Source: Chrysoperla carnea (Eukaryota; Arthropoda; Insecta; Neuroptera; Chrysopidae). Taken from it: a DNA stretch of 64,000 nt. Positions 2,985-51,892 of this stretch are shown here, one piece after another; position 1 is the stretch's first letter; every line of letters begins with the position of its first letter. Made by a program: the position numbers and the translations under genes. Below the pieces are notes generated by a model that made no database searches, had not been told where the DNA came from, and saw only the letters and a list, made by a program, of their open reading frames with translations. Location of the stretch: the NCBI RefSeq assembly GCF_905475395.1, contig NC_058337.1:139073172-139137171 (forward strand). The letters are read 5' to 3'.

Positions 2985-5900
2985 ATGGACACCTACGAAC
3001 GAAATGTTATGCAGACGCTAAACGTGGTACCTCAAGGTGGTAGCACTGATATGATGAAGAAAGTGGAGAGAGCGTTGAGGCTCATCAAGACGGTGGAGGA
3101 AGCTGAGCGATGGATGATACTTAATAAGCAGAACATCCGCTTATTCAAAAAGATGTTGATGTTAAAGAAAGAAAATCCTCTGCGTCTTGAAGCTAATATT
3201 GGACTTTGTAAATCATACCAGCGGCAACTTCACCGACTGCGATTAGATTTAGTTAAGCAAGGTGGTGGTGTCACCAAAAAACAAAATCGACATCTAATCT
3301 GGGAGACAATTGAAACCCACCACCAGGGCAGGGTGAAGACTGGTATGATTACCAATTTGGATTATAAAGATCCAAATATATTTTTCAACCGGGCATTTCC
3401 AATGTTTAGAAGACACGTTCGGCGTGAGCTAGTGAAGCATCCCCTCAAGGTAAGTAAAATTTAAGATTTATAATTTAAATAGTCTAATGAGATTTTTTTT
3501 CAGGTGTATATTATGTTCACGGGCAATTTCATTAAGCCCACCACCAAAGAGGAGGATTTGAAAACATTTATAACGTCGGCCAAGGAAATGTATCTGACAA
3601 CGGACATGCAGGAGTGGTACAATGATCATGTCAAAAACTATTTGCTGAAAAAATTGGAAGAATTCCAGGAACGCGATAGCGGTTGGGCTCTTGACATGAT
3701 CATAAATATTCGAGTCCACATGAATAAGTACTCTCCGATCACAGCTGGAACATTTTGTGAACTACCACCAGTCATCAAAAATAAATTGGCTGTGATTAAT
3801 GTCCAGAATGATGACCAACATTGCTTTTTATGGTCGATAATGTCAGCACTTTACCCGGTTGAAAGGAATCCTCAACGTTTAACTAAGTACCCGCACTATA
3901 AACATCATTTAAAATGTGATGGATTAAAGTTCCCCATGTCTCTGGATCAAATTAATAAATTTGAAAAGATGAACCCGCAGCTATCGATTAACGTGTACGG
4001 CTACAAAGATACGTTTCTACGTGATTTAGAAATTTTCCCTGTACGCGTTAGTTCGAACACTGTGGGGAAGAAAATTCATCTACTTGCTGTGGAGAATGGG
4101 AACAGTCACCACTTTTGCTGGATAAAAAATTTAGCAAAGTTGAGTCGATCGGGTGTAACAAAATACAAGAATAAAATATTTTTATGTGATCGATGTCTCA
4201 ACTATTTTGCTACAGAAGTCAAACTCCAACAGCATTCAGTAAATTGTGGTGAAAAAGAAGCGGTGCGGGTACGAATGCCTGAAACTGATGACGAGCGGTT
4301 CGTTGAGTTCAAAGATTTCAACAGCAAGGAACGTGTTGAGTATATGGTGTACGCTGACTTTGAGGCGTTATTGGTACCACAACATCATGAAGACATGGAA
4401 ATGGATCATGGGTCTTATACAAAAAATATTCAAAAACATGTACCCTACAGTGTAGGTTACTATGTTCATTGTACCCATGATCCCAACCAATCGTTTTATA
4501 AGGCATACCGTGGTGCTGATTGTGTCAAGTGGTTTGTTCATGAACTGGAACAAGTAGCGTACTCATTAGAGCAAAAAATAAAACACGTTAAACCAATGTA
4601 TCCGCTCACCGTCGAACAAGAACTGGATTTTATGTCAGCAGAGAAGTGTCACATTTGTGATAAAGATTTCGTATCCAATTCCATACGTGTTCGCGACCAT
4701 TCACATCGCACAGGTAATGTAATTTATTTATTTTTTTTTAATTTCATCTAATTTTATATTAATCTATTTTAGGTATCTACCGTGGAGCAGCACACCAATT
4801 TTGTAATCTGCATTATCAAGATTCAAGGGTGATACCTGTTGTGATGCACAACTTAAGTGGATACGATTCGCATTTTATTATTGAAGCTCTGCTGACGGAA
4901 ATCGACGGTCAAGTTGATGTGTTGCCCATCAACAAAGAAAAGTACATCAGTTTCACAAAGCACGTCTCGGACATTCAATTAAGATTCATTGATTCCTTCC
5001 GATTTCTCGCAGACAAGTTGGAAAATCTGGCCTCATATTTAGATAATGATAAAAAATCCATTTTACATAAAGAGGTAAATGATAAAAAATAAATAATTTT
5101 TAATACAGGGTTGTAATTTGTTTTTTAATTTTTTATAGGTCAGTAATGATGAACAATTTCAATTGCTGACGAGAAAAGGTGTATTTCCATATGAATACAT
5201 GAGTAGCTGGGGACGTCTCCAAGAGACAAAATTACCACCAAAGGAGGCGTTCTACAGTGTGTTAACAGATGAACACATAACGGATGAGGATTATAACCAT
5301 GCGATACAGGTATGGAACACATTCAATTTACATACACTAGGTGATTATTCAGACCTGTATATGAAAACTGATGTGTTACTACTTGCGGATATTTTTGAAA
5401 ATTTCCGTAACACTTGTATTCATAGCTATAGTCTCGATCCTAGTCACTATTACACACTTCCTGGCTATACGTGGAGCGCCATGTTGAAATACACCAATAT
5501 CAAATTGGAATTGTTCACGGATATTGATGACTTGTTGTTTATCGAGAAAGGAATCAGAGGCGGTGTAAGTCAATGTTCTAATCGCTATGCTAAGGCAAAC
5601 AATAAGTACATGGAAGAGGGGTATGATAAAACTCAAGAAGATGTCTACCTTATGTATTACGATGTGGTGAACCTATATGGTGCAGCAATGTGTGGATACC
5701 TACCAACAGGAAATTTTAAGTGGGTCGACACACCAAACATCGAGGATGTTGCAGATGATTCACCAGTCGGGTACATTTTAGAAGTAGACCTTGAAATACC
5801 CCAACATCTACATGATAACTTTAGCGATTTACCGCCATGTCCGGAGACAACGAAACCACCTGGATCAAAACAAAAATATCTTCTGTCAACCCTTTACAAT

Positions 5901-6866
5901 AAGACCAACTATGTCGTGCACTACAGGAATTTAAAACTGTATACACAACTCGGTGTTAAGGTAACAAAATACCACCGTGTGTTACAATTCGATCAATCTG
6001 CATGGTTGAAACCATATATTGATTTCAATACCGAGATGCGCAAGAACGCCTCAAATGAGTTTGAAAAAGCATTATTCAAACTCATGATTAATGCCATCTT
6101 CGGTAAAACCATGGAGAATGTGAGGAAACATCGGGTTGTGTACATACGAAAAAATTGGGATGGAAAACATGGTGTGAAGAAATTAATTGCCAATCCCAAT
6201 TTTCACAGTATGATGGTGCTCGACAATGACGTCAGTATTGTTGAAATGAAAAAAACACAGATACGTTTCAACAAACCCATCTACATAGGCTTCACAATTT
6301 TAGACATATCGAAAACGTTTGTGTATGACTTCCACTACAACTACATGTACCAACGGTACAACCCCACAAATGTCAGGTTATTATACACAGACACCGATAG
6401 TCTAATTTATAGCGTGAAAAATACTGACGTCTATGAGGTCATGAAACAGGATATTAATCGTTTTGATACGGCTGACTATGCACCCGACAACATCTATGGT
6501 ATGCCACTACGTAATAAGAAAGTCAAGGGTTTAATGTCCGATGAAAATAATGGTGATGTTATGCTAGAATTTGTCGGATTACGTAGCAAAATGTATGCTA
6601 TTCGGGTGCAAAATAAAAAAGAGACTAAACGATCCAAGGGTCTCAAGAAGTCAGCTATCCGAAAACTTACTTTTGAGGACTATAAGCGGTGTTTGCTTGA
6701 GAACCGTAACTTTTACCATGTTCAGCAAAGCATCCAATCCAAGCGACACCGCTTACATACCATCAAACAGCAGAAAGTGGGCTTATCACCATTTGACCAA
6801 AAACGATACATTACTCACAATTCATGTGAAACAAAACCATGGGGCCACTATAGCATTATTTGTTGA
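2985..6866 (+). CDS. polB: Protein-primed DNA polymerase B of Polinton (4 exons)
   Basis: This family B, protein-primed polymerase would replicate the linear element from its ends. The exons read as 2985-3449, 3504-4713, 4773-5074 and 5139-6866; all three introns (54-64 bp) begin GT and end AG. The product is about 1234 aa. Visible motifs: a C2-type zinc finger (CDRC, near residue 383); Exo I DFE (near 438); a Cys/His cluster, CHIC...VRDHSHRTG, spanning the exon 2/3 junction; Exo II HNLSGYD (near 585); Exo III in YSDLYMKTD (near 730); Pol A YDVVNLYG (near 833); Pol [11 protein letters not shown] (near 973); Pol C YTDTDS (near 1075). The C-terminus ends in the GHYSI block usual for Polintons. 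The start is the first ATG of the exon carrying the N-terminal region; no terminal-protein domain is obvious. The frame is intact. A GTAAGT at 6869 just after the stop, with an acceptor near 6926, suggests a 3' UTR intron. Confidence 0.93.
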
Positions 6867-7709: not shown

Positions 7710-8633
7710 CTATAAAAGAAGACTTTTTTTATCAATATATGAATCGTGTAAAGAGTCGAACCCTAGCCACCGGACTTTAACTTTGGATCCGCGTTTAGCT
7801 AAGACCTTTTCCACTAAATAAATGTTTCGATCGTGAACTTTTTGTAATTCTTCGGCATAGAAACCACCCTTTATATCTTCGTTGTTATAGTCCTTCAGTA
7901 AATATGTTCTTGGGTTTGTAAGTTTCACCTCGCGAATGGTGAATATTTCTGGTGTCCATGATGGATGAAAACCACGAGCAAACGTCGTTCTAAATTTACT
8001 TATCCTTACATGATCGCCAACTGTAAATTTTTGTTTTGGACCCACCATCTTAATATGATTGTATGAATCTTTTAAAATCCGTTTTTCGTTTCGTGTATTG
8101 ACTTGTGATGGCTTCATCCTGATTGTCCGATGGTATGAATTATTGTACTGTTTAATCAATTCCGGTAATACTTTTATCCATTTATAATTACCATACAAAC
8201 TGAAATGTTTGTACATCATCGATTTCAGTGTGCGTATAAATCTTTCCACAATACACGCCTTTTTAGTTGAATATACAGAATAATGGTTTATGTTGTACTC
8301 TTTCATCAATCTCTTAAATTTTTCATTATAAAATTCCGTACCATTATCAGTTTGAAGGTTTTTCGGTGTACGATCTTTTATAATCTGTTCCATGGCATTA
8401 GTGACATCCACAGCACTCTTGGACTTTAGTGGCATAGCCCAGCTATATTTGGAGAAGCAATCGATGACCACCAAAATATATTTAAAGTTGGTATTTTGTC
8501 TTGCATACGGGATCATTTCTACCAAATCAGCTTGAAATAAATCATTGAGTCCCTTAATGATTACACGCCTTCTTGGATAATTACGTCGAGCTGGTTTATG
8601 TAGCTCATTCACAACAATTCGTCTTTTATCCAT
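7710..8633 (-). CDS. int: Polinton integrase (retroviral-type DDE) with C-terminal chromodomain
   Basis: 307 aa. It would join the element ends to target DNA and create the 6-bp duplication. The RNase H-fold catalytic acids are D36 (in QADLVEM), D96 (in LQTDNGTEF) and E130 (in KACIVERFIRTLK). After the core come an SH3-like region (VGDHVRISKFR) and a chromodomain (YLVEKVLAKRG, then KVRWLGF) at the C-terminus, which may steer integration to marked chromatin. No HHCC zinc-binding domain precedes the core, so the protein is short at the N-terminus compared with retroviral integrases. Its ATG overlaps the end of the upstream fibre-like gene by 8 nt (8626-8633), so it is probably translated from a shared mRNA. 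It is nearly identical to the copy in element D. Confidence 0.93.
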   Translation of the reverse strand: MDKRRIVVNELHKPARRNYPRRRVIIKGLNDLFQADLVEMIPYARQNTNFKYILVVIDCFSKYSWAMPLKSKSAVDVTNAMEQIIKDRTPKNLQTDNGTEFYNEKFKRLMKEYNINHYSVYSTKKACIVERFIRTLKSMMYKHFSLYGNYKWIKVLPELIKQYNNSYHRTIRMKPSQVNTRNEKRILKDSYNHIKMVGPKQKFTVGDHVRISKFRTTFARGFHPSWTPEIFTIREVKLTNPRTYLLKDYNNEDIKGGFYAEELQKVHDRNIYLVEKVLAKRGSKVKVRWLGFDSLHDSYIDKKSLLL

Positions 8634-11850: not shown

Positions 11851-13047
11851 TTAAACTACTCTATTCACAATATTCGTAAGTGGATTGTATTTAAATAATC
11901 GATCATGGAACACTATACAATACGCACGCGTTTTAGCTGGGAAATTAACACTAGCTTCAAACTCAACGCGCAAGTCCACTGTTGTAGATTTAAGTGACTC
12001 TGGGTGCTTCGAACAGTCAATGACAAATAGAGGTGATTTATTTATAAACGTTTCTTTATCTAGCAATGGTTCTGTTATAGAGCGTCTATAGTACGATTTT
12101 TGAAAATTGCAATACATTTCATACAGTAACGCTGTTTGATTATTTGTGTAATTTAGATTCAAATTCACATATGGGTAGGCTTCACCATTTAAATAGACTT
12201 TCAAATTTGTTATGTTACAATGGTCAAACTGACTGGAATCTTTTAAAATGTTGCGGTCACGATTTGTTTGGAAACAGATAACAGCGTAGTTAGGACATTC
12301 TACACTAGTTTTAACACTCCATACATGTCTATCAGTTAATGGTAGTTCTGGTATAAGTAGACATTCCATTGATCGAAACCATAACCTCAAATCATCATTT
12401 TGATTGACTAAGTTGTATAATTCGACTCGCATTTTATCAGACACTTTAACGTATGGAACACACCATTCTAATTTGTTGATTTTAATTTTAGGTTTGCTTG
12501 TTGCGACAGTTGAGGTAAAACAATTAATATCATCATTTGCACGAACAATAACGATTTCTTGTTTCATGTTTACGAGAATTTTAGGATAATCTTCAAAAAA
12601 ACCCATATACATTTTCAATGGAATACGAACATTGAAGTAACCAGCAGCATTCTTTTTAAAATTTTCACCAAAGCCAGCATTCTCTAAAGCTTTACTTTGA
12701 TTTTGATTTAGGGATAGATAGTTTTTTATAGTGCTAACGATGCCTACGTTATTAATCACATCAATTACCTTACCACCAATTTCATAACGAATTTCATGAA
12801 ACATAAATGATATAGCATTCGATATGAAGCTGGCTGTATTTGTATCATCATCATCAGTCACTTGACCTTCGATATTTAAAACACTTTCACTTGGTAATGT
12901 GTACAAGTCTTGTGATTGAATGCAAATTCTACTCTCATCGCTTGATTCAAATTTCGATGAATTATAAGCTTGGTGGTTGTGATACTCTAGTCCTGTAATA
13001 ACATTATCGTACTCAGGTACATTGGTCACTTCTAGTATTTCTGCCAT
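11851..13047 (-). CDS. mcp: Polinton major capsid protein (double jelly roll)
   Basis: 398 aa. It matches the Polinton MCP type: N-terminal block MAEILEVTNVPEYDN; a first barrel with FMFHEIRYEIGGKVID and NNVGIVSTIKNYLSL; and a second barrel with VYLNGEAYPYVNLNLNY and a C-terminal RAYCIVFHDRLF. Trimers of such double jelly rolls form the hexagonal capsomers of adeno-like virions. There is no signal peptide or membrane span. It lies between penton plus the 59-aa gene and ORF162. It differs from element D's copy by very few residues (T/V near position 70, Q/E near 118), so the family is under constraint or of recent origin. Confidence 0.9.
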   Translation of the reverse strand: MAEILEVTNVPEYDNVITGLEYHNHQAYNSSKFESSDESRICIQSQDLYTLPSESVLNIEGQVTDDDDTNTASFISNAISFMFHEIRYEIGGKVIDVINNVGIVSTIKNYLSLNQNQSKALENAGFGENFKKNAAGYFNVRIPLKMYMGFFEDYPKILVNMKQEIVIVRANDDINCFTSTVATSKPKIKINKLEWCVPYVKVSDKMRVELYNLVNQNDDLRLWFRSMECLLIPELPLTDRHVWSVKTSVECPNYAVICFQTNRDRNILKDSSQFDHCNITNLKVYLNGEAYPYVNLNLNYTNNQTALLYEMYCNFQKSYYRRSITEPLLDKETFINKSPLFVIDCSKHPESLKSTTVDLRVEFEASVNFPAKTRAYCIVFHDRLFKYNPLTNIVNRVV

Positions 13048-14016: not shown

Positions 14017-14379
14017 TTATTTATTTAATAAAAATTGTATACATAGATGTCCACAAATCGGAGTATTAAACTGTTGTTGCCTATCAAAATTATATTGAAT
14101 GTCACATCCGTTAAAATATTTAATGACTTCCACTGGCGGTCTCAAATTTCCAAAACTATCATAATAGATGACACTTCGATTGTACTTTTTATATGCCGTC
14201 CAGTGTGTACCACTATTTTTGGATACATCATGGTTGATAATTCCTGTTTCATATTTATATGGTCTTTTGGGTAGGGTGTCACGCATAAAAACACCACGAA
14301 AATACGGAATTTTAAATTGTTTAGCATACGCACGTAGCTCCGTATCGTAAAGTGCTCTACGTGGTAGCGTTTCAATTAG
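14017..14379 (-). CDS. pro: Adenovirus-type cysteine protease, expressed by -1 frameshift
   Basis: This reading frame has no ATG before conserved protease sequence: KIPYFRGVF lies upstream of the first methionine (MRDTLPK). The frame is open from the slippery site at 14379-14385, where a -1 shift from the PLA2/pVI-like gene would enter it, adding 120 aa. Catalytic residues by the adenain pattern (numbered from the shift) are H59 in GTHW, D74 in YYDSFG and C109 in ICGHLC, with a Gln a few residues before Cys for the oxyanion hole. The role is maturation of capsid precursors. Starting at MRDTLPK (14286) would give only 89 aa without the conserved N-terminal block, a less likely alternative. The arrangement is conserved in element D. 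Confidence 0.8.
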   Translation of the reverse strand, partial: LIETLPRRALYDTELRAYAKQFKIPYFRGVFMRDTLPKRPYKYETGIINHDVSKNSGTHWTAYKKYNRSVIYYDSFGNLRPPVEVIKYFNGCDIQYNFDRQQQFNTPICGHLCIQFLLNK

Positions 14380-15161
14380 TTTTTTGCTAAATATAATCCC
14401 ATGCCTTTGTTGTACGGTCTTAAATACAAGCCTTTACCCATTGCTATAGCTTCCATTGTTTTGTTGTGTCTTTGACTCTCATTAAGTTGATCACGAGCAC
14501 TTTTATAATTTGTAACAGCTTTAGCAATACCCGACGCTCCACCAGCCAAAGCACCTAAAGCAGAGAGTCCTGCGAATATTGGAATTAATGGAAGTACACC
14601 ACCAGACTTCGGAACTGGTATTACACGTGTGGGTGCTTTAATACGTTGACCTCGCACGGCTGCTTTTGCTATTTTTACAGCTGCTTTTAAGTCCGTTGGT
14701 TGTGATTTTTTCAATGCATTTCGTGCCTTTCGCACTGATGCTGTAAAGTTTATAGTTTTCTTTGTCTTTTTCGTCTTTTTCTTTTTTAATCCCATACCAA
14801 GTGAAGTTTTTGTCTTCATGGCGCCTGTAACGAATAAAGCGGATGCTTTTTCACCAATTGTTGAATCAGATGCTTTGGCACGTTTCCAAGCGGCTTCAGC
14901 TAATTGTTTATCTGCTAGATGACGCTCCTTTAAGTCTTTACTTTTTGAATATGCTATATCATGTACCATACAAGCCTGATCCAATGTGTTTTTTGGTTTA
15001 TCACCACGCGCTAATCGTTCTGCCAGCTTAGTTCCAGGTCCACAATATTGATAAGTTGGTATGTGTAACTCAAACGGTAATTTATTTATAAGTGTGTTAA
15101 CAATACCTCTTCCTTTGTGTTGTTGCTTCTGATGTGACATACTACTAAATGATTTAAACAA
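14376..15161 (-). CDS. PLA2-domain / pVI-like membrane-active virion protein
   Basis: 261 aa from the first ATG; the second Met (MSHQKQQ, residue 8) is an equally likely start. Residues 39-71 form a phospholipase A2 core of the parvovirus VP1u type: a YCGPGT calcium loop and the catalytic pair H67-D68 in CMVHDIAY. A Lys-rich stretch follows, including KKKKTKKTKK near 125. Residues about 190-216 are a hydrophobic Ala/Gly/Leu helix (LPLIPIFAGLSALGALAGG), and the C-terminus has GLYLRPYNKGMGLYLAKN, a pattern common in Polinton and adenovirus-pVI-like proteins. LAGG|A fits the adenain-type cleavage rule. The likely job is membrane lysis during entry plus a role in protease packaging (inference). 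The gene ends on a slippery heptamer immediately before its stop. Confidence 0.8.
   Translation of the reverse strand: MFKSFSSMSHQKQQHKGRGIVNTLINKLPFELHIPTYQYCGPGTKLAERLARGDKPKNTLDQACMVHDIAYSKSKDLKERHLADKQLAEAAWKRAKASDSTIGEKASALFVTGAMKTKTSLGMGLKKKKTKKTKKTINFTASVRKARNALKKSQPTDLKAAVKIAKAAVRGQRIKAPTRVIPVPKSGGVLPLIPIFAGLSALGALAGGASGIAKAVTNYKSARDQLNESQRHNKTMEAIAMGKGLYLRPYNKGMGLYLAKN
14379..14385 (-). promoter_or_regulatory. -1 ribosomal frameshift site AAAAAAC (element A)
   Basis: On the - strand the last codons of the PLA2/pVI-like gene read GCA AAA AAC TAA, i.e. the canonical X XXY YYZ heptamer A AAA AAC directly before the stop. A -1 slip continues into the protease frame. Downstream, TACCACGTAG and CTACGTG(C)GTA can form a ~10-bp stem with one bulge, starting 12 nt after the heptamer. 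Confidence 0.75.
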
Positions 15162-15231
15162 TTAAGTTCACATATATTTAAATGTTTATAAAATGGGTTG
15201 TATTGAAATTTTAGTCTTAGTTACATTAAAA
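15141..15231. promoter_or_regulatory. Divergent promoter between PLA2/pVI-like gene and ATPase
   Basis: The two outward-facing frames are only 31 bp apart by first ATGs, or about 90 bp apart if both use the second Met (MSHQ and MRFHKQQ). The interval has TATATTTAAAT and TTTATAAA, TATA-like boxes usable in either direction. It is unchanged in the palindromic copy and in element D. Confidence 0.45.
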
Positions 15232-15915
15232 ATGCGTTTTCATAAACAACAACCCGCTCTGAGTGTTGAAAATTTAATACCAGAAAATACAGACACACAA
15301 ACATATCATGGTCCTCTATTTTCAGATTCACTACGAACAATAATATGTGGCCCTAGTGGCTGTGGTAAAACCAATGTTATGTTGAATTTAATTTATGATG
15401 AAAACGGTTTACGCTTTGAAAACATTTATGTGTACAGTAAATCTCTTTACCAACCGAAATATCAATTACTAGAAGAGACTTTAAAATTAGTGGAAGGGGT
15501 TGGATATTTTCCATTTAGTGATACTAGTGAAATTCTTAGTCCGAATGAAGCTCGAGAAAAAAGTCTTTTCATTTTTGACGATGTGAGCTGTCATTCACAA
15601 CAGAGAATTAGAGAATACTTTAGTATGGGTCGTCATCGAAAAATTGATTGTTTCTACCTATGTCAGAGCTACGCACGTGTTCCAAAGCATAACATAAGGG
15701 ACAATGTTAATTGCTTGGTGTTATTCAAAACGGACGAAATGAATCTAAAACACATATTCTACGATCATGTTGGCTCTGATATGAATTTTCAAAAATTTCA
15801 TGATTTATGTCGACATTGTTGGAGTTCACCAAATGGATTTGTTGTAATAATGAAAAATTTCTCTATGAATGCGGGTCGTTATAGGAATGGATTTGATGAA
15901 TTTATTGAACTGTAG
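15193..15915 (+). CDS. atp: FtsK/HerA-type genome-packaging ATPase
   Basis: 240 aa from the first ATG; Met14 (MRFHKQQPALSVENL) is the more family-like start. It has Walker A GPSGCGKT (53-60), Walker B SLFIFDD (about 124-130), and a downstream polar block LCQSYARVP that serves as sensor in A32-like packaging ATPases. The role is to pump element DNA into the preformed capsid. It reads toward the right TIR, divergent from the PLA2/pVI-like gene. The sequence is nearly identical in elements D and B (palindrome) and decayed in the other copies of B and in C. Confidence 0.92.
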   Translation: MGCIEILVLVTLKMRFHKQQPALSVENLIPENTDTQTYHGPLFSDSLRTIICGPSGCGKTNVMLNLIYDENGLRFENIYVYSKSLYQPKYQLLEETLKLVEGVGYFPFSDTSEILSPNEAREKSLFIFDDVSCHSQQRIREYFSMGRHRKIDCFYLCQSYARVPKHNIRDNVNCLVLFKTDEMNLKHIFYDHVGSDMNFQKFHDLCRHCWSSPNGFVVIMKNFSMNAGRYRNGFDEFIEL

Positions 15916-38930: not shown

Positions 38931-39890
38931 GTAGAAGAGTCAGGTCACTCCTGGCGCAAAAGAATGGTACACTTTTCAAAAAAGGGCAAACCTAGGTGAA
39001 TGTTGGAAACCTCGGTTGAATGCGAAGTTGGAGGGGATAGATGACGTCATTGACCAATAGTAAATCAAGATGGCGTTGGGAGGTGTGGTGGGGCGTGGCT
39101 GACAGAGCGTTAGTGTGTTTCTTGGCGGAAGTGGGGCTTAAAGTGGTGGGCGCGGTTTTGGAAGTGGGGGTTAAAAGGGGGCGGGAATTGGACGTTAGAT
39201 AATCGAGCCCACTTTCAACCCCAAAGTATGGTACACTTTTCCAAAAAGGGCAAACCTAGGTGAATGTTGGAAACCTCGGCATTGACCAATAGTAAATCAA
39301 GATGGCGTCGGGAGGTGTGGTGTTGGGGAATAATGGCTGCCTAAGCATTGATGACGTCATTGGCTTTGACCAATAGTAGCACTGTAAAAATCAAGATGGC
39401 GTCGGGAGGTGTGGTTGAATTGGTGGGGAGGAATGGCTGCCTAAGCATAAACGGGAAATTACCAGGTGACGTCATTGGCTTTGACCAATAGTGGTGCTTG
39501 ACGGGGGGTGAACGGGGGGCGGGACGTTGACATTAGTCAGCAATTTTCAAGAATATGTTAATTTGACCTTGAAAAATATTGTAATTTGACACTTTAAATA
39601 TACATGATAAAATTCAAGATACGTGACCGGATGTTAATATTTTTTTATGATTAAGCAATGTAATATGACACTTGAAATTTACATAATAAAAATACATGTT
39701 CAAACTTGTTTGAATGGACTTTGATCTTAAAATAATTTTACACGTGTCAGCTATTCTCAAGAATATGTTAATTTGACCTTGAAAAATATGATATCATCAT
39801 CCTGTTACAAGTTCAAACTTGTTTGAATAAAAATACATGTTCAAACTTGTTTGAACATGTTTAAACTTGTTTGAATCGCATTAGATCTTA
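38931..39890 (+). repeat. TIR at left of the palindromic unit
   Basis: It starts GTAGAAGAGTCAGG, lacking the leading A, directly after truncated ATPase sequence. Two outer units and one fewer inner subrepeat than its partner at 43734-44909. Confidence 0.9.
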
Positions 39891-40057
39891 AAATAATTTT
39901 ACACGTGTTATGAGATTAGAATAAAGGTTTTATTTAATAAAAATCTTATAAATATTTTTTTTTTATTTATTAATGATTAAAATTTACATTTTAAAAAAAA
40001 TTTACAGAAAAAAATTATTATTATGAATCTGAAAAAACACACAAAGTATTGCTGACA

Positions 40058-40780
40058 CTACAGTTCAATAAATTCATCAAATCCATTCCTATAACGACCT
40101 GCATTCATAGAGAAATTTTTCATTATTACAACAAATCCATTTGGTGAACTCCAACAATGTCGACATAAATCATGAAATTTTTGAAAATTCATATCAGAGC
40201 CAACATGATCGTAGAATATGTGTTTTAGATTCATTTCGTCTGTTTTGAATAACACCAAGCAATTAACATTGTCCCTTATGTTATGCTTTGGAACACGTGC
40301 GTAGCTCTGACATAGATAGAAACAATCAATTTTTCGATGACGGCCCATACTAAAGTATTCTCTAATTCTCTGTTGTGAATGACAGCTCACATCATCAAAA
40401 ATGAAAAGACTTTTTTCTCGAGCTTCATTCGGACTAAGAATTTCACTAGTATCACTAAATGGAAAATATCCAACCCCTTCCACTAATTTTAAAGTCTCTT
40501 CTAGTAATTGATATTTCGGTTGGTAAAGAGATTTACTGTACACATAAATGTTTTCAAAGCGTAAACCGTTTTCATCATAAATTAAATTCAACATAACATT
40601 GGTTTTACCACAACCACTAGGGCCACATATTATTGTTCGTAGTGAATCTGAAAATAGAGGACCATGATATGTTTGTGTGTCTGTATTTTCTGGTATTAAA
40701 TTTTCAACACTCAGAGCGGGTTGTTGTTTATGAAAACGCATTTTTAATGTAACTAAGACTAAAATTTCAATACAACCCAT
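40058..40780 (-). CDS. atp: Packaging ATPase, intact (palindrome left arm)
   Basis: 240 aa, same protein as 15193-15915, with intact Walker A GPSGCGKT and Walker B FIFDD. It is flanked by TIR on one side and the divergent promoter (40781-40811 and around) on the other. The only silent differences from other copies (for example TCTGTTTTG at 40238) are shared with the copy at 42830-43552, showing that the arms have a common recent origin. Confidence 0.9.
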   Translation of the reverse strand: MGCIEILVLVTLKMRFHKQQPALSVENLIPENTDTQTYHGPLFSDSLRTIICGPSGCGKTNVMLNLIYDENGLRFENIYVYSKSLYQPKYQLLEETLKLVEGVGYFPFSDTSEILSPNEAREKSLFIFDDVSCHSQQRIREYFSMGRHRKIDCFYLCQSYARVPKHNIRDNVNCLVLFKTDEMNLKHIFYDHVGSDMNFQKFHDLCRHCWSSPNGFVVIMKNFSMNAGRYRNGFDEFIEL

Positions 40781-40811
40781 TTTATAAACATTTAAATATA
40801 TGTGAACTTAA

Positions 40812-41597
40812 TTGTTTAAATCATTTAGTAGTATGTCACATCAGAAGCAACAACACAAAGGAAGAGGTATTGTTAACACACTTATAAATAAATTACCGTT
40901 TGAGTTACACATACCAACTTATCAATATTGTGGACCTGGAACTAAGCTGGCAGAACGATTAGCGCGTGGTGATAAACCAAAAAACGCATTGGATCAGGCT
41001 TGTATGGTACATGATATAGCATATTCAAAAAGTAAAGACTTAAAGGAGCGTCATCTAGCAGATAAACAATTAGCTGAAGCCGCTTGGAAACGTGCCAAAG
41101 CATCTGATTCAACAATTGGTGAAAAAGCATCCGCTTTATTCGTTACAAGCGCCATGAAGGCAAAAACTTCACTTGGTATGGGATTAAAAAAGAAAAAGAT
41201 GAAAAAGACAAAGAAAACTATAAACTTTACAGTATCAGTGCGAAAGGCACGAAATGCATTGAAAAAATCACAACCAACGGACTTAAAAGCAGCAGTAAAA
41301 ATAGCAAAAGCAGCCGTGCGAGGTCAACGTATTAAAGCACCCACACGTGTAATACCAGTTCCAAAGTCTGGTGGTATACTTCCATTAATTCCAATATTCG
41401 CAGGACTCTCTGCTTTAGGTGCTTTGGCTGGCGGAGCGTCGGGTATTGCTAAAGCTGTTACAAATTATAAAAGTGCTCGTGATCAACTTAATGAGAGTCA
41501 AAGACACAACAAAACAATGGAAGCTATAGCAATGGGTAAAGGCTTGTATTTAAGACCGTACAACAAAGGCATGGGATTATATTTAGCAAAAAACTAA
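40812..41597 (+). CDS. PLA2-domain / pVI-like protein (palindrome left arm)
   Basis: 261 aa; the YCGPGT calcium loop and HDIAY catalytic dyad are kept. Arm-specific changes relative to element A: T/A in KPKNALDQ, S for G in TSAMKAK, M in KKKKMKK, V in FTVSVRK, I in SGGILP. All are shared with 42013-42798. The slippery heptamer AAAAAAC is at 41588-41594 before the TAA. Confidence 0.85.
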   Translation: MFKSFSSMSHQKQQHKGRGIVNTLINKLPFELHIPTYQYCGPGTKLAERLARGDKPKNALDQACMVHDIAYSKSKDLKERHLADKQLAEAAWKRAKASDSTIGEKASALFVTSAMKAKTSLGMGLKKKKMKKTKKTINFTVSVRKARNALKKSQPTDLKAAVKIAKAAVRGQRIKAPTRVIPVPKSGGILPLIPIFAGLSALGALAGGASGIAKAVTNYKSARDQLNESQRHNKTMEAIAMGKGLYLRPYNKGMGLYLAKN

Positions 41598-41842
41598 TTG
41601 AAACGCTACCACGTAGAGCACTTTACGATACGGAGCTACGTGCGTATGCTAAACAATTTAAAATTCCGTATTTTCGTGGTGTTTTTATGCGTGACACCCT
41701 ACCCAAAAGACCATATAAATATGAAACAGGAATTATCAACCATGATGTATCCAAAAATAGTGGTACACACTGGAGGGCATATAAAAAGTACAATCGAAGT
41801 GTCATCTATTATGATAGTTTTGGAAATTTGAGACCGCCAGTG
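41594..41842 (+). pseudogene. Protease, truncated at the palindrome centre (left copy)
   Basis: The -1 frame is open from the slippery site through FRGVFMRD, GTHW (His) and YYDSFG (Asp), up to LRPP. There the sequence turns back on itself at CCAGTG, and the Cys-containing C-terminus is lost. One substitution, R for T, follows GTHW. Confidence 0.85.
41774..41836. other. Centre of the palindrome (63-bp spacer)
   Basis: Single-copy protease sequence between the inverted arms. CCAGTG at 41837-41842 is present in the normal gene just after GAGACCG, and its inverse CACTGG stands at 41768-41773. The turn thus occurs at a 6-bp inverted microhomology. Confidence 0.85.
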
Positions 41843-42016
41843 TGTACCACTATTTTTGGATACATCATGGTTGATAATTCCTGTTTCATATTTATATGGT
41901 CTTTTGGGTAGGGTGTCACGCATAAAAACACCACGAAAATACGGAATTTTAAATTGTTTAGCATACGCACGTAGCTCCGTATCGTAAAGTGCTCTACGTG
42001 GTAGCGTTTCAATTAG
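41837..42016 (-). pseudogene. Protease, truncated at the palindrome centre (right copy)
   Basis: Mirror copy of the first ~60 codons of the protease frame, ending at GTHW. It is shorter than the left copy because the spacer belongs to the other orientation. The slippery heptamer is at 42016-42022 (- strand). Confidence 0.8.
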
Positions 42017-42798
42017 TTTTTTGCTAAATATAATCCCATGCCTTTGTTGTACGGTCTTAAATACAAGCCTTTACCCATTGCTATAGCTTCCATTGTTTTG
42101 TTGTGTCTTTGACTCTCATTAAGTTGATCACGAGCACTTTTATAATTTGTAACAGCTTTAGCAATACCCGACGCTCCGCCAGCCAAAGCACCTAAAGCAG
42201 AGAGTCCTGCGAATATTGGAATTAATGGAAGTATACCACCAGACTTTGGAACTGGTATTACACGTGTGGGTGCTTTAATACGTTGACCTCGCACGGCTGC
42301 TTTTGCTATTTTTACTGCTGCTTTTAAGTCCGTTGGTTGTGATTTTTTCAATGCATTTCGTGCCTTTCGCACTGATACTGTAAAGTTTATAGTTTTCTTT
42401 GTCTTTTTCATCTTTTTCTTTTTTAATCCCATACCAAGTGAAGTTTTTGCCTTCATGGCGCTTGTAACGAATAAAGCGGATGCTTTTTCACCAATTGTTG
42501 AATCAGATGCTTTGGCACGTTTCCAAGCGGCTTCAGCTAATTGTTTATCTGCTAGATGACGCTCCTTTAAGTCTTTACTTTTTGAATATGCTATATCATG
42601 TACCATACAAGCCTGATCCAATGCGTTTTTTGGTTTATCACCACGCGCTAATCGTTCTGCCAGCTTAGTTCCAGGTCCACAATATTGATAAGTTGGTATG
42701 TGTAACTCAAACGGTAATTTATTTATAAGTGTGTTAACAATACCTCTTCCTTTGTGTTGTTGCTTCTGATGTGACATACTACTAAATGATTTAAACAA
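42013..42798 (-). CDS. PLA2-domain / pVI-like protein (palindrome right arm)
   Basis: Protein identical to 40812-41597, including arm-specific substitutions. Frame intact, ending in GCA AAA AAC TAA. Confidence 0.85.
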   Translation of the reverse strand: MFKSFSSMSHQKQQHKGRGIVNTLINKLPFELHIPTYQYCGPGTKLAERLARGDKPKNALDQACMVHDIAYSKSKDLKERHLADKQLAEAAWKRAKASDSTIGEKASALFVTSAMKAKTSLGMGLKKKKMKKTKKTINFTVSVRKARNALKKSQPTDLKAAVKIAKAAVRGQRIKAPTRVIPVPKSGGILPLIPIFAGLSALGALAGGASGIAKAVTNYKSARDQLNESQRHNKTMEAIAMGKGLYLRPYNKGMGLYLAKN

Positions 42799-42829
42799 TT
42801 AAGTTCACATATATTTAAATGTTTATAAA

Positions 42830-43552
42830 ATGGGTTGTATTGAAATTTTAGTCTTAGTTACATTAAAAATGCGTTTTCATAAACAACAACCCGCTCTGAG
42901 TGTTGAAAATTTAATACCAGAAAATACAGACACACAAACATATCATGGTCCTCTATTTTCAGATTCACTACGAACAATAATATGTGGCCCTAGTGGTTGT
43001 GGTAAAACCAATGTTATGTTGAATTTAATTTATGATGAAAACGGTTTACGCTTTGAAAACATTTATGTGTACAGTAAATCTCTTTACCAACCGAAATATC
43101 AATTACTAGAAGAGACTTTAAAATTAGTGGAAGGGGTTGGATATTTTCCATTTAGTGATACTAGTGAAATTCTTAGTCCGAATGAAGCTCGAGAAAAAAG
43201 TCTTTTCATTTTTGATGATGTGAGCTGTCATTCACAACAGAGAATTAGAGAATACTTTAGTATGGGCCGTCATCGAAAAATTGATTGTTTCTATCTATGT
43301 CAGAGCTACGCACGTGTTCCAAAGCATAACATAAGGGACAATGTTAATTGCTTGGTGTTATTCAAAACAGACGAAATGAATCTAAAACACATATTCTACG
43401 ATCATGTTGGCTCTGATATGAATTTTCAAAAATTTCATGATTTATGTCGACATTGTTGGAGTTCACCAAATGGATTTGTTGTAATAATGAAAAATTTCTC
43501 TATGAATGCAGGTCGTTATAGGAATGGATTTGATGAATTTATTGAACTGTAG
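42830..43552 (+). CDS. atp: Packaging ATPase, intact (palindrome right arm)
   Basis: 240 aa, identical protein to 40058-40780, reading toward the right TIR as in element A. Walker A and B intact. Confidence 0.9.
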   Translation: MGCIEILVLVTLKMRFHKQQPALSVENLIPENTDTQTYHGPLFSDSLRTIICGPSGCGKTNVMLNLIYDENGLRFENIYVYSKSLYQPKYQLLEETLKLVEGVGYFPFSDTSEILSPNEAREKSLFIFDDVSCHSQQRIREYFSMGRHRKIDCFYLCQSYARVPKHNIRDNVNCLVLFKTDEMNLKHIFYDHVGSDMNFQKFHDLCRHCWSSPNGFVVIMKNFSMNAGRYRNGFDEFIEL

Positions 43553-43733
43553 TGTCAGCAATACTTTGTGTGTTTTTTCAGATTCATAATAATAATTTTT
43601 TTCTGTAAATTTTTTTTAAAATGTAAATTTTAATCATTAATAAATAAAAAAAAAATATTTATAAGATTTTTATTAAATAAAACCTTTATTCTAATCTCAT
43701 AACACGTGTAAAATTATTTTAAGATCTAATGCG

Positions 43734-44909
43734 ATTCAAACAAGTTTAAACATGTTCAAACAAGTTTGAACATGTATTTTTATTCAAACAAGTTTGAACT
43801 TGTAACAGGATGATGATATCATATTTTTCAAGGTCAAATTAACATATTCTTGAGAATAGCTGACACGTGTAAAATTATTTTAAGATCAAAGTCCATTCAA
43901 ACAAGTTTGAACATGTATTTTTATTATGTAAATTTCAAGTGTCATATTACATTGCTTAATCATAAAAAAATATTAATATCCGGTCACGTGTTTTGACACA
44001 TGTAAAATTATTTCAAACAAGTTTGAACTTGTTACAAGATGATGATATCATATTTTTCAAGGTCAAATTAACATATTCTTGAAAATTGCTGACACGTGTA
44101 AAATTATTTTAAGATCAAAGTCCATTCAAACAAGTTTGAACATGTATTTTTATTATGTAAATTTCAAGTGTCATATTACATTGCTTAATCATAAAAAAAT
44201 ATTAACATCCGGTCACGTATCTTGAATTTTATCATGTATATTTAAAGTGTCAAATTACAATATTTTTCAAGGTCAAATTAACATATTCTTGAAAATTGCT
44301 GACTAATGTCAACGTCCCGCCCCCCGTTCACCCCCCGTCAAGCACCACTATTGGTCAAAGCCAATGACGTCACCTGGTAATTTCCCGTTTATGCTTAGGC
44401 AGCCATTCCTCCCCACCAATTCAACCACACCTCCCGACGCCATCTTGATTTTTACAGTGCTACTATTGGTCAAAGCCAATGACGTCATCAATGCTTAGGC
44501 AGCCATTATTCCCCAACACCACACCTCCCGACGCCATCTTGATTTACTATTGGTCAATGCCGAGGTTTCCAACATTCACCTAGGTTTGCCCTTTTTGGAA
44601 AAGTGTACCATACTTTGGGGTTGAAAGTGGGCTCGATTATCTAACGTCCAATTCCCGCCCCCTTTTAACCCCCACTTCCAAAACCGCGCCCACCACTTTA
44701 AGCCCCACTTCCGCCAAGAAACACACTAACGCTCTGTCAGCCACGCCCCACCACACCTCCCAACGCCATCTTGATTTACTATTGGTCAATGACGTCATCT
44801 ATCCCCTCCAACTTCGCATTCAACCGAGGTTTCCAACATTCACCTAGGTTTGCCCTTTTTTGAAAAGTGTACCATTCTTTTGCGCCAGGAGTGACCTGAC
44901 TCTTCTACT
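43734..44909 (-). repeat. Right TIR of element B / palindromic unit
   Basis: About 1.18 kb, ending CTCTTCTACT at the CATATT duplication. It has the GTTTTGACACATG-containing subrepeat (about 43990-44090) that the partner TIR at 38931 lacks. Confidence 0.93.
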
Positions 44910-50747: not shown

Positions 50748-51533
50748 TTGTTTAAATCATTTAGTAGTATGTCACATCAGAAGCAACAACACAAAGGAAG
50801 AGGTATTGTTAACACACTTATAAATAAATTACCGTTTGAGTTACACATACCAACTTATCAATATTGTGGACCTGGAACTAAGCTGGCTGAACGATTAGCG
50901 CGTGGTGATAAACCAAAAAACGCATTGGATCAGGCTTGTATGGTACATGATATAGCATATTCAAAAAGTAAAGACTTAAAGGAGCGTCATCTAGCAGATA
51001 AACAATTAGCTGAAGCCGCTTGGAAACGTGCCAAAGCATCTGATTCAACAATTGGTGAAAAAGCATCCGCTTTATTCGTTACAGGCGCCATGAAGACAAA
51101 AACTTCACTTGGTATGGGATTAAAAAAGAAAAAGACGAAAAAGACAAAGAAAACTATAAACTTTACAGCATCAGTGCGAAAGGCACGAAATGCATTGAAA
51201 AAATCACAACCAACGGACTTAAAAGCAGCTGTAAAAATAGCAAAAGCAGCCGTGCGAGGTCAACGTATTAAAGCACCCACACGTGTAATACCAGTTCCAA
51301 AGTCTGGTGGTGTACTTCCATTAATTCCAATATTCGCAGGACTCTCTGCTTTAGGTGCTTTGGCTGGTGGAGCGTCGGGTATTGCTAAAGCCGTTACAAA
51401 TTATAAAAGTGCTCGTGATCAACTTAATGAGAGTCAAAGACACAACAAAACAATGGAAGCTATAGCAATGGGTAAAGGCTTGTATTTAAGACCGTACAAC
51501 AAAGGCATGGGGTTATATTTAGCAAAAAACTAA
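50748..51533 (+). CDS. PLA2-domain / pVI-like protein (element D)
   Basis: 261 aa, one residue (A for T in KPKNALDQ) different from element A. PLA2 motifs YCGPGT and HDIAY, basic stretch, hydrophobic helix and GLYL-containing tail all present. Ends GCA AAA AAC TAA. Confidence 0.85.
   Translation: MFKSFSSMSHQKQQHKGRGIVNTLINKLPFELHIPTYQYCGPGTKLAERLARGDKPKNALDQACMVHDIAYSKSKDLKERHLADKQLAEAAWKRAKASDSTIGEKASALFVTGAMKTKTSLGMGLKKKKTKKTKKTINFTASVRKARNALKKSQPTDLKAAVKIAKAAVRGQRIKAPTRVIPVPKSGGVLPLIPIFAGLSALGALAGGASGIAKAVTNYKSARDQLNESQRHNKTMEAIAMGKGLYLRPYNKGMGLYLAKN
51524..51530 (+). promoter_or_regulatory. -1 ribosomal frameshift site AAAAAAC (element D)
   Basis: Heptamer directly before the TAA at 51531-51533. 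Downstream stem: 51543-51552 with 51572-51582 (one bulged C at 51579), 12 nt after the heptamer; the loop is 19 nt. Confidence 0.75.
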
Positions 51534-51892
51534 TTGAAACGCTACCACGTAGAGCACTTTACGATACGGAGCTACGTGCGTATGCTAAACAATTTAAAAT
51601 TCCGTATTTTCGTGGTGTTTTTATGCGTGACACCCTACCCAAAAGACCATATAAATATGAAACAGGAATTATCAACCATGATGTATCCAAAAATAGTGGT
51701 ACACACTGGACGGCATATAAAAAGTACAATCGAAGTGTCATCTATTATGATAGTTTTGGAAATTTGAGACCGCCAGTGGAAGTCATTAAATATTTTAACG
51801 GATGTGACATTCAATATAATTTTGATAGACAACAACAGTTTAATACTCCGATTTGTGGACATCTATGTATACAATTTTTATTAAATAAATAA
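51530..51892 (+). CDS. pro: Adenovirus-type cysteine protease by -1 frameshift (element D)
   Basis: 120 codons after the shift, ending at TAA 51890-51892. His in GTHW, Asp in YYDSFG, Cys in ICGHLC. There is no ATG upstream of the conserved KIPYFRGVF block: the frame is closed by a TAA about 48 nt before the slippery site, and none of the codons between is ATG. The fusion would be about 380 aa. Confidence 0.8.
   Translation, partial: LIETLPRRALYDTELRAYAKQFKIPYFRGVFMRDTLPKRPYKYETGIINHDVSKNSGTHWTAYKKYNRSVIYYDSFGNLRPPVEVIKYFNGCDIQYNFDRQQQFNTPICGHLCIQFLLNK

Follow-up and report, generated by a model that had tools for sequence, protein, structure and literature searches.

Programmed -1 ribosomal frameshifting very probably expresses the protease (PRO) of the Polintons studied here. 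Ribosomes on the PLA2/pVI-like mRNA would arrive at nnA AAA AAC, or at GGGTTTT or AAATTTT in sister clades, and a minority would slip back by one base, in the AAAAAAC clades thereby passing a stop codon that lies 0-2 codons further on. Slipped ribosomes would produce a fusion protein (PLA2-PRO, about 370 aa) and the others would stop, leaving PLA2 alone. Slippage should, on this reading, take place at some rate; the fusion could be packaged via its membrane-active part, after which the protease would free itself. Programmed -1 frameshifting would account at once for the -1 relation, the heptamers, the invariant codons and the absence of an ATG.

The PLA2-PRO junction of the window element

The window, i.e. 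the whole stretch of 64,000 nt that was analysed, is part of a 559-Mb assembly. Its predicted gene set of POLB, retroviral-type integrase, A32/FtsK-type ATPase, jelly-roll capsid and adenain-type protease, the latter counted by homology, identifies the element under study as a Polinton/Maverick (Table 1). POLB matched DNA_pol_B_2 with an E-value of 1e-8 on 4763-5089, and no match was found for the adjoining 5139-6863, in NCBIfam and PDB either. The gene is seemingly split by two GT-AG introns of 59 nt (4714-4772) and 64 nt (5075-5138) inferred from the sequence; the stretch between both putative introns is the part that matched DNA_pol_B_2. The window further contained, on the minus strand at 163-1501, an IS21-type pair, i.e. 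of a bacterial insertion-sequence type, located on a 140-Mb contig of the 559-Mb genome. It consists of IstB (PF01695, E 3e-40) and an ORF with a Mu-transposase C-terminal domain (PF22483) that is IstA-like by position. From about 29224 onward a 16-bp unit forms a tandem array (97 overlapping 300-nt register copies were reported).

Table 1. Coordinates of features in the window
Feature	Position	Strand	Basis
rve (integrase) domain	7710-8633		Pfam match
DJR-like capsid	11851-13047		Pfam match
PRO, -1 frame, 120 codons LIETLPRRALYD...LLNK + stop, no ATG before FRGVFM	14017..14379	-	homology, AlphaFold
Hairpin, arms 14357-14366 and 14327-14337, 12 nt past the heptamer, window family only	14327..14366	-	folding
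ACG codon before LPRRALYD (Met in P0002), near-cognate start of the rival reading	14368..14370	-	homologue comparison
Overlap of PLA2 frame with open -1 frame	14376..14433	-	18 open -1 codons upstream of heptamer exit
PLA2/pVI-like ORF, 254 aa, ATG at 15140, C-terminus ...GLYLAKN*	14376..15140	-	PF08398 Phospholip_A2_4
Slippery heptamer A AAA AAC, final two sense codons of PLA2 ORF	14379..14385	-	sequence read
Pox_A32 ATPase	15193-15915		Pfam match
Heptamer copy, PRO truncated (residues 1-84 matched)	41588..41594	+	sequence match
Heptamer copy, PRO truncated (residues 1-74 matched)	42016..42022	-	sequence match
Heptamer copy, full PRO at 51530-51889	51524..51530	+	sequence match

The upstream ORF matched Phospholip_A2_4 with an E-value of 9e-15 in a run on 14376-15125. 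The PF08398 match together with YCGPGT and HD in the translation, which we take to be the Ca-loop and the HD motif, marks it as a putative PLA2-like virion protein. The initial annotation had the gene end in GCA AAA AAC TAA and the protease frame lack an ATG ahead of its conserved block. Both were borne out: AAAAAAC at 14379-14385 is in the PLA2 frame, and a scan of the -1 frame from its upstream stop to the ATG of FRGVF-M yielded neither ATG nor GTG nor TTG. Yet the -1 frame is not open precisely from the heptamer, as had been stated, but from 18 codons upstream of it, which makes an overlap of 58 nt.

PRO is predicted to be an adenain-type cysteine protease. Searched as a single sequence against Pfam it gave no match, and the best solved-structure match of the family profile in the PDB was the adenovirus proteinase 1avp (E 7e-5). 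In this alignment H59, D74, Q102 and C109 of PRO match, in the order H, D/E, Q, C, the adenain positions that we presume to be catalytic. AlphaFold modelled PRO as a confident single domain with a pLDDT of 92.9. The database entry P0001, listed as the PRO encoded in the window, begins only at the internal Met of FRGVF-M. The block ahead of this Met (LPRRALYDTELRAYAKQFKIPYF) is conserved across the PRO family, and its second half aligns with the start of adenain.

The layout had been reported to recur at 14379, 41588, 42016 and 51524. It does recur, in copies of one element, with PRO being truncated at 41588 and 42016. Upstream of the heptamer the four copies differ at 12 positions over 830 nt; the heptamer itself and the ~185 nt after it are invariant. 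Because these are near-identical copies of one element the four sites are not independent, and recurrence within the window was rejected as independent evidence. So was the abundance of the heptamer, which is at chance level with 51 AAAAAAC in the window compared to 54 ± 8 by chance. Upon synonymous re-drawing of the PLA2 gene 20% of the draws ended in AAAAAAC and 56% carried some slippery heptamer in the overlap. An in-frame slippery heptamer was located in the last four codons of 6 out of 55 window ATG ORFs of at least 80 aa, i.e. the four PLA2 copies and two unrelated ORFs. The window alone is weak evidence for a frameshift; the excess over chance stems from the relatives of its element. 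Two Polinton pieces, the protease truncated in both, are arranged head-to-head in a near-perfect palindrome at 39614-43996 (arms of 2163 nt at 100%, 57 nt between).

Conservation of frame and slip site in relatives

At least 150 protease matches were found in the same genome (G000). We paired 97 PLA2 matches by hand with 101 of the 150 listed PRO matches, leaving out neighbourless fragments. Judged by coordinates, PRO was in -1 in 92 of the 97 pairs, in frame in 5 and in +1 in none; the spacing differs among the pairs, yet the -1 relation holds. For reading the junctions, 60 of the 150 listed protease matches were chosen to cover the families. Of the first 40 loci 30 retained a PLA2 junction, as did all of a further 20, giving 50 junctions. 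The ten loci dropped from the first set had no intact PLA2 junction (L022, L041-L045, L047, L048, L051, L052); L051 is a decayed copy of the GGGTTTT clade with stops in PRO and the heptamer lost. At 48 of the 50 junctions (28/30 in the first and 20/20 in the second set) a canonical X XXY YYZ heptamer of conserved codons stood in register with PRO in -1, as is characteristic of a programmed -1 site. The remaining two were L016, the only junction in frame (49/50 were in -1), and L029, which is without a canonical heptamer. AAAAAAC was present 24 times, GGGTTTT 20 times and AAATTTT followed by TTTTTTT five times, one junction having none, and the type goes by clade. At 23 of its 24 junctions AAAAAAC was in register, L016 being the exception.

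Clustering of 30 junction loci gave 13 clusters at 90% and 5 at 70% identity. Not counting as clusters of their own the short L033, which is cut by a stop, and at 90% the truncated L046, we arrived at about 11 families and four clades. Protease identity between clades was 44-55% in the six between-clade pairs compared. The expectation that homologous Polintons keep both the heptamer and the -1 overlap held in four diverged clades of the genome and, at the protein level, in 107 of the 119 homologues from elsewhere that are described below. An ATG just after the slip site occurred in 2 of the 11 families (L014/L019; L017, L018, L021, L025, L033). Both families retain AAAAAAC, and the heptamer-free L029 has no ATG; homologues combining an ATG with the loss of the slip site, named beforehand as evidence against a frameshift, were encountered at 0 of 50 junctions. 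Decay is seen in many of the genome copies, and in some of these (e.g. L013, L021, L030) PLA2 is broken further upstream. Many of the protease matches crowd near contig ends, at 138.2-139.9 of 140 Mb on C1, 65-74 of 76 Mb on C5 and 0.5-13 of 39 Mb on C6.

The nucleotide sequence of the slip site was compared at distances where synonymous positions are near saturation, the pS of PLA2 among five AAAAAAC families being 0.54-0.75. The last ~50 PLA2 codons of six families contain 15 degenerate columns with an invariant residue. Thirteen of them vary in codon; AAA and AAC of the slip site alone stay constant. In these PLA2 genes Asn is more often encoded by AAT (69) than by AAC (32). The codon ahead of AAA AAC is GCA, CCA or TCA depending on the family and ends in A at all 14 loci listed. 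Ahead of GGT TTT the four loci printed have AGG or CGG, and upstream 1 of 36 Arg codons ends in G. Given the residues, the chance of AAAAAAC was 0.066-0.11 per locus, with a product over seven loci of 6e-8 if these are independent, two of the seven sharing one family; for GGGTTTT the chance was 0.013 per lineage. The codon pattern indicates that nucleotides rather than residues are selected at the slip site. A crude dN/dS of 0.03-0.43 for the whole of PRO (pairs with finite dS) and of 0.06-0.62 for the 21-25 codons before FRGVF indicates that the PRO frame is under constraint.

A stimulatory stem or pseudoknot about 5-9 nt downstream is usual, albeit not universal, at -1 sites. The downstream stem described in the initial annotation is present as written, 12 nt after the heptamer, but a role as a stimulator conserved across families found no support. 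Folding of the window-family hairpin (copy L046) gave an unremarkable -11.5 kcal/mol with a z-score of -1.3. RNAalifold yielded -1.8 kcal/mol on eight loci, i.e. no consensus structure across families. The z-scores of 18 loci folded at 50 and 80 nt were between -1.3 and 1.05 in 28 of 36 cases, and the low scores (L020/L024, L039, L001) came with differing structures. With a hairpin at 12 nt and no cross-family consensus among the nested folds searched, no conserved stimulatory structure was seen at the junctions. We rejected the stem as a conserved frameshift stimulator because no structure common to the families emerged. In the AAAAAAC clades it may instead be the stop codon shortly after the heptamer that counts.

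The PLA2 family was also examined outside this genome. The best 120 of 2217 PLA2 homologues were inspected, and after removal of the window's own P0066 the remaining 119 were compared at the protein level. Among these matches KN is positioned 0-2 residues from the C-terminus in 107 of 119. The residue before the terminal KN can be coded by nnA in 107/107 cases vs 137/181 for KN elsewhere in the same proteins. Of the other 12, P0093, P0111, P0154 and P0182 have KN at a distance of five residues from the C-terminus, and P0072, P0105, P0144, P0149 and P0162 have a run of KKK close to it. The rest are P0086, P0164 and P0104, the last of which stops short of the conserved end. One viral contig from IMG/VR (IMGVR_UViG_3300046323_000841; L001) has A AAA AAC in register, PRO in -1 and no ATG before FRGVFM. 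Its protease is 39% identical and its upstream ORF of 207 aa ends in VVTKKKNPEF. The upstream protein had no match in Pfam, and an hhalign probability of 10.5% to the PLA2 family, in a hydrophobic GG-rich stretch, is suggestive only. Searches of viral contigs by protease, PLA2 and ATPase revealed no DNA relative beyond L001 (L002-L004 are the same contig); none was confirmed in genome contigs and none was found in phages.

A length-restricted search returned 30 matches, nine of which combine PRO with PLA2 or with the C-terminal domain of PLA2 within a single ORF or gene model (P0186-P0192, P0195, P0212). P0186 of Aphis craccivora and P0187 of Aquatica leii are gene models from genomes, whose frames may have been bridged by the placing of an intron; P0212 is apparently frame-shifted mid-protein, and P0189, P0191 and P0192 are partial. 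The genomic copy L016 likewise has PLA2 and PRO in frame. P0195 contains no PLA2 and shares the C-terminal domain (48% over 54 residues, E 3e-12), therefore what constantly accompanies PRO may be this domain and not the PLA2 fold. In 17 of the 30 matches the protease is accompanied by an integrase domain (PF00665) and in many of them also by a chromo domain, the protease motif being N-terminal where located (P0194, P0197, P0199-P0202, P0204-P0211, P0213-P0215). Four show neither integrase nor PLA2. A separate group of proteases (P0043, P0046, P0048, P0054, P0055, P0062) has a near-constant MPxGxTTN-like start and may possess its own ATG; P0065 suggests that this group still follows a GLYLGPY-type tail.

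Alternative explanations

PRO might be translated from its own start, a near-cognate ACG in the window family and an ATG in others, either on a transcript that begins internally or through reinitiation past the stop of PLA2. In P0002, the nearest homologue, LPRRALYD is preceded by Met exactly where it is preceded by ACG in the window, two genome families carry the ATG after the slip site, e.g. TAACAATG, and near-cognate codons were present in 11/11 loci scanned. The near-cognates are scattered, however, with no start codon at a conserved place across the 11 loci, and P0186 of Aphis craccivora has Thr at the position in question (ISTLPKRALYD). An ACG start, considered on account of the Met in P0002, was rejected since the position is not conserved. 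An own start would leave the invariant slip-site codons, the nearly constant -1 frame and the KN ends unexplained and, with an ATG in 2/11 families, would cover some families at most; we regard it as unlikely. Very unlikely in our view is a spliceosomal intron that joins the PLA2 and PRO frames or supplies PRO with a leader ATG. Splicing of PLA2-PRO is conceivable because POLB appears to have introns, two of the GT-AG type going by the sequence, and splicing probably does occur in this element. Splice sites were scanned on DNA by a simple consensus count, the stricter threshold of which misses a POLB donor and the looser one of which passes the POLB donors. Even with the looser threshold no frame-joining intron was found in the window or in 6/11 representatives (L015, L019, L020, L023, L031, L049); the other five contained a frame-joining GT-AG pair (L013, L018, L028, L039, L040). 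Yet the acceptor of L028/L040 is missing from the sister L023, no site is common to the clades, and splicing would not preserve AAA AAC at the end of PLA2.

Slippage on the homopolymer could also be transcriptional instead of ribosomal and restore the frame in the mRNA. Long runs do exist, A11 in L001 and 4-6 A followed by 7-8 T in three printed third-clade loci. On the other hand, at the 14 listed AAAAAAC loci the run is always A6 followed by C, its length showing no drift, and GGGTTTT allows tandem slippage on short runs, all of which renders transcriptional slippage highly improbable. A mere chance overlap in dead transposon copies would agree with the heptamer count in the window and with the 20% of synonymous re-draws that keep the heptamer. 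It is already contradicted by the comparative data, namely by a layout kept across four clades and among homologues from elsewhere, together with the constraint on the PRO frame, and we give it practically no credence.

Relation to known systems

In the literature on frameshifting in Polintons, Mavericks and adintoviruses, as far as it was covered, we found no account of PLA2-PRO. The accessible part of a 2024 preprint (PMC11071296), the only source consulted that speaks of a programmed frameshift in the group, predicts -1 frameshifts for hexon-adenain ('Hexain') and penton in adintoviruses, hexon-adenain being dealt with in one sentence. Adintoviruses are Polinton kin, and the predicted -1 shift into adenain follows the same proposed principle. 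The partner there is the hexon and that part of the preprint contains no conservation test, in contrast to the PLA2/pVI-like partner and the conservation tested here. The initial remark that no description of such frameshifting in Polintons was known is nearly right, the exception being the hexon-adenain prediction. The Sf Maverick of Spodoptera cells is likewise an insect Maverick with a PLA2-domain protein and an adenain-like PRO; CAP and PRO are described as separate ORFs (PMC5803895). The part of that paper available to us mentions neither an overlap nor a start codon, and frameshifting appears only in its errantivirus section.

As a tentative generalization, which we consider possible rather than probable, the ancestral state in Polintons and their protist relatives might be a maturation protease that extends a membrane-active, pVI-like virion protein at its C-terminus. 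It would be made via -1 frameshifting, the slip sites being interchangeable, or in derived cases as an in-frame fusion. The shift would then set the dose of the protease and tie it to the pVI-type C-terminal tail, so that the protease-pVIc pairing of adenovirus would have a covalent counterpart. Most known cases of programmed -1 frameshifting come from RNA viruses, retroelements, bacterial insertion sequences and phages. If true, the PLA2-PRO shift would be a rare addition, i.e. conserved -1 frameshifting in a eukaryotic dsDNA virus-like transposon, and would account for the protease gene of these elements often being without a start. It would make Polinton virion biology testable through the ratio of PLA2 to PLA2-PRO, the packaging of the protease and its activation. 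A protease tied to a pVI-type partner would also bear on the origin of the adenovirus protease-pVI system.

The -1 frameshifting of retroviral gag-pro takes place on A AAA AAC in MMTV and HTLV-2. The Polinton junctions resemble it in the class of heptamer, in a -1 shift close to where a structural ORF ends, in a start-less downstream virion protease and in the expected excess of the structural protein. They differ in that the element is a dsDNA Polinton, the protease an adenain-like cysteine instead of an aspartic protease, the partner PLA2/pVI-like, and in that no conserved stimulatory structure was found in the Polinton junctions. PLA2-PRO of Polintons would work like retroviral Gag-Pro expression, to which it is not related.

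In adenovirus, the pairing of protease and pVIc forms in trans after cleavage. The adenovirus protease with its pVIc cofactor, as described in the available parts of PMC4246237 and PMC4740752, belongs to the adenain family too, and there, as proposed here, the protease is paired with the C-terminal end of a pVI-type protein. Unlike that pairing, the one in Polintons would be covalent, since the shift would tie the protease and the pVI-type tail together in cis.
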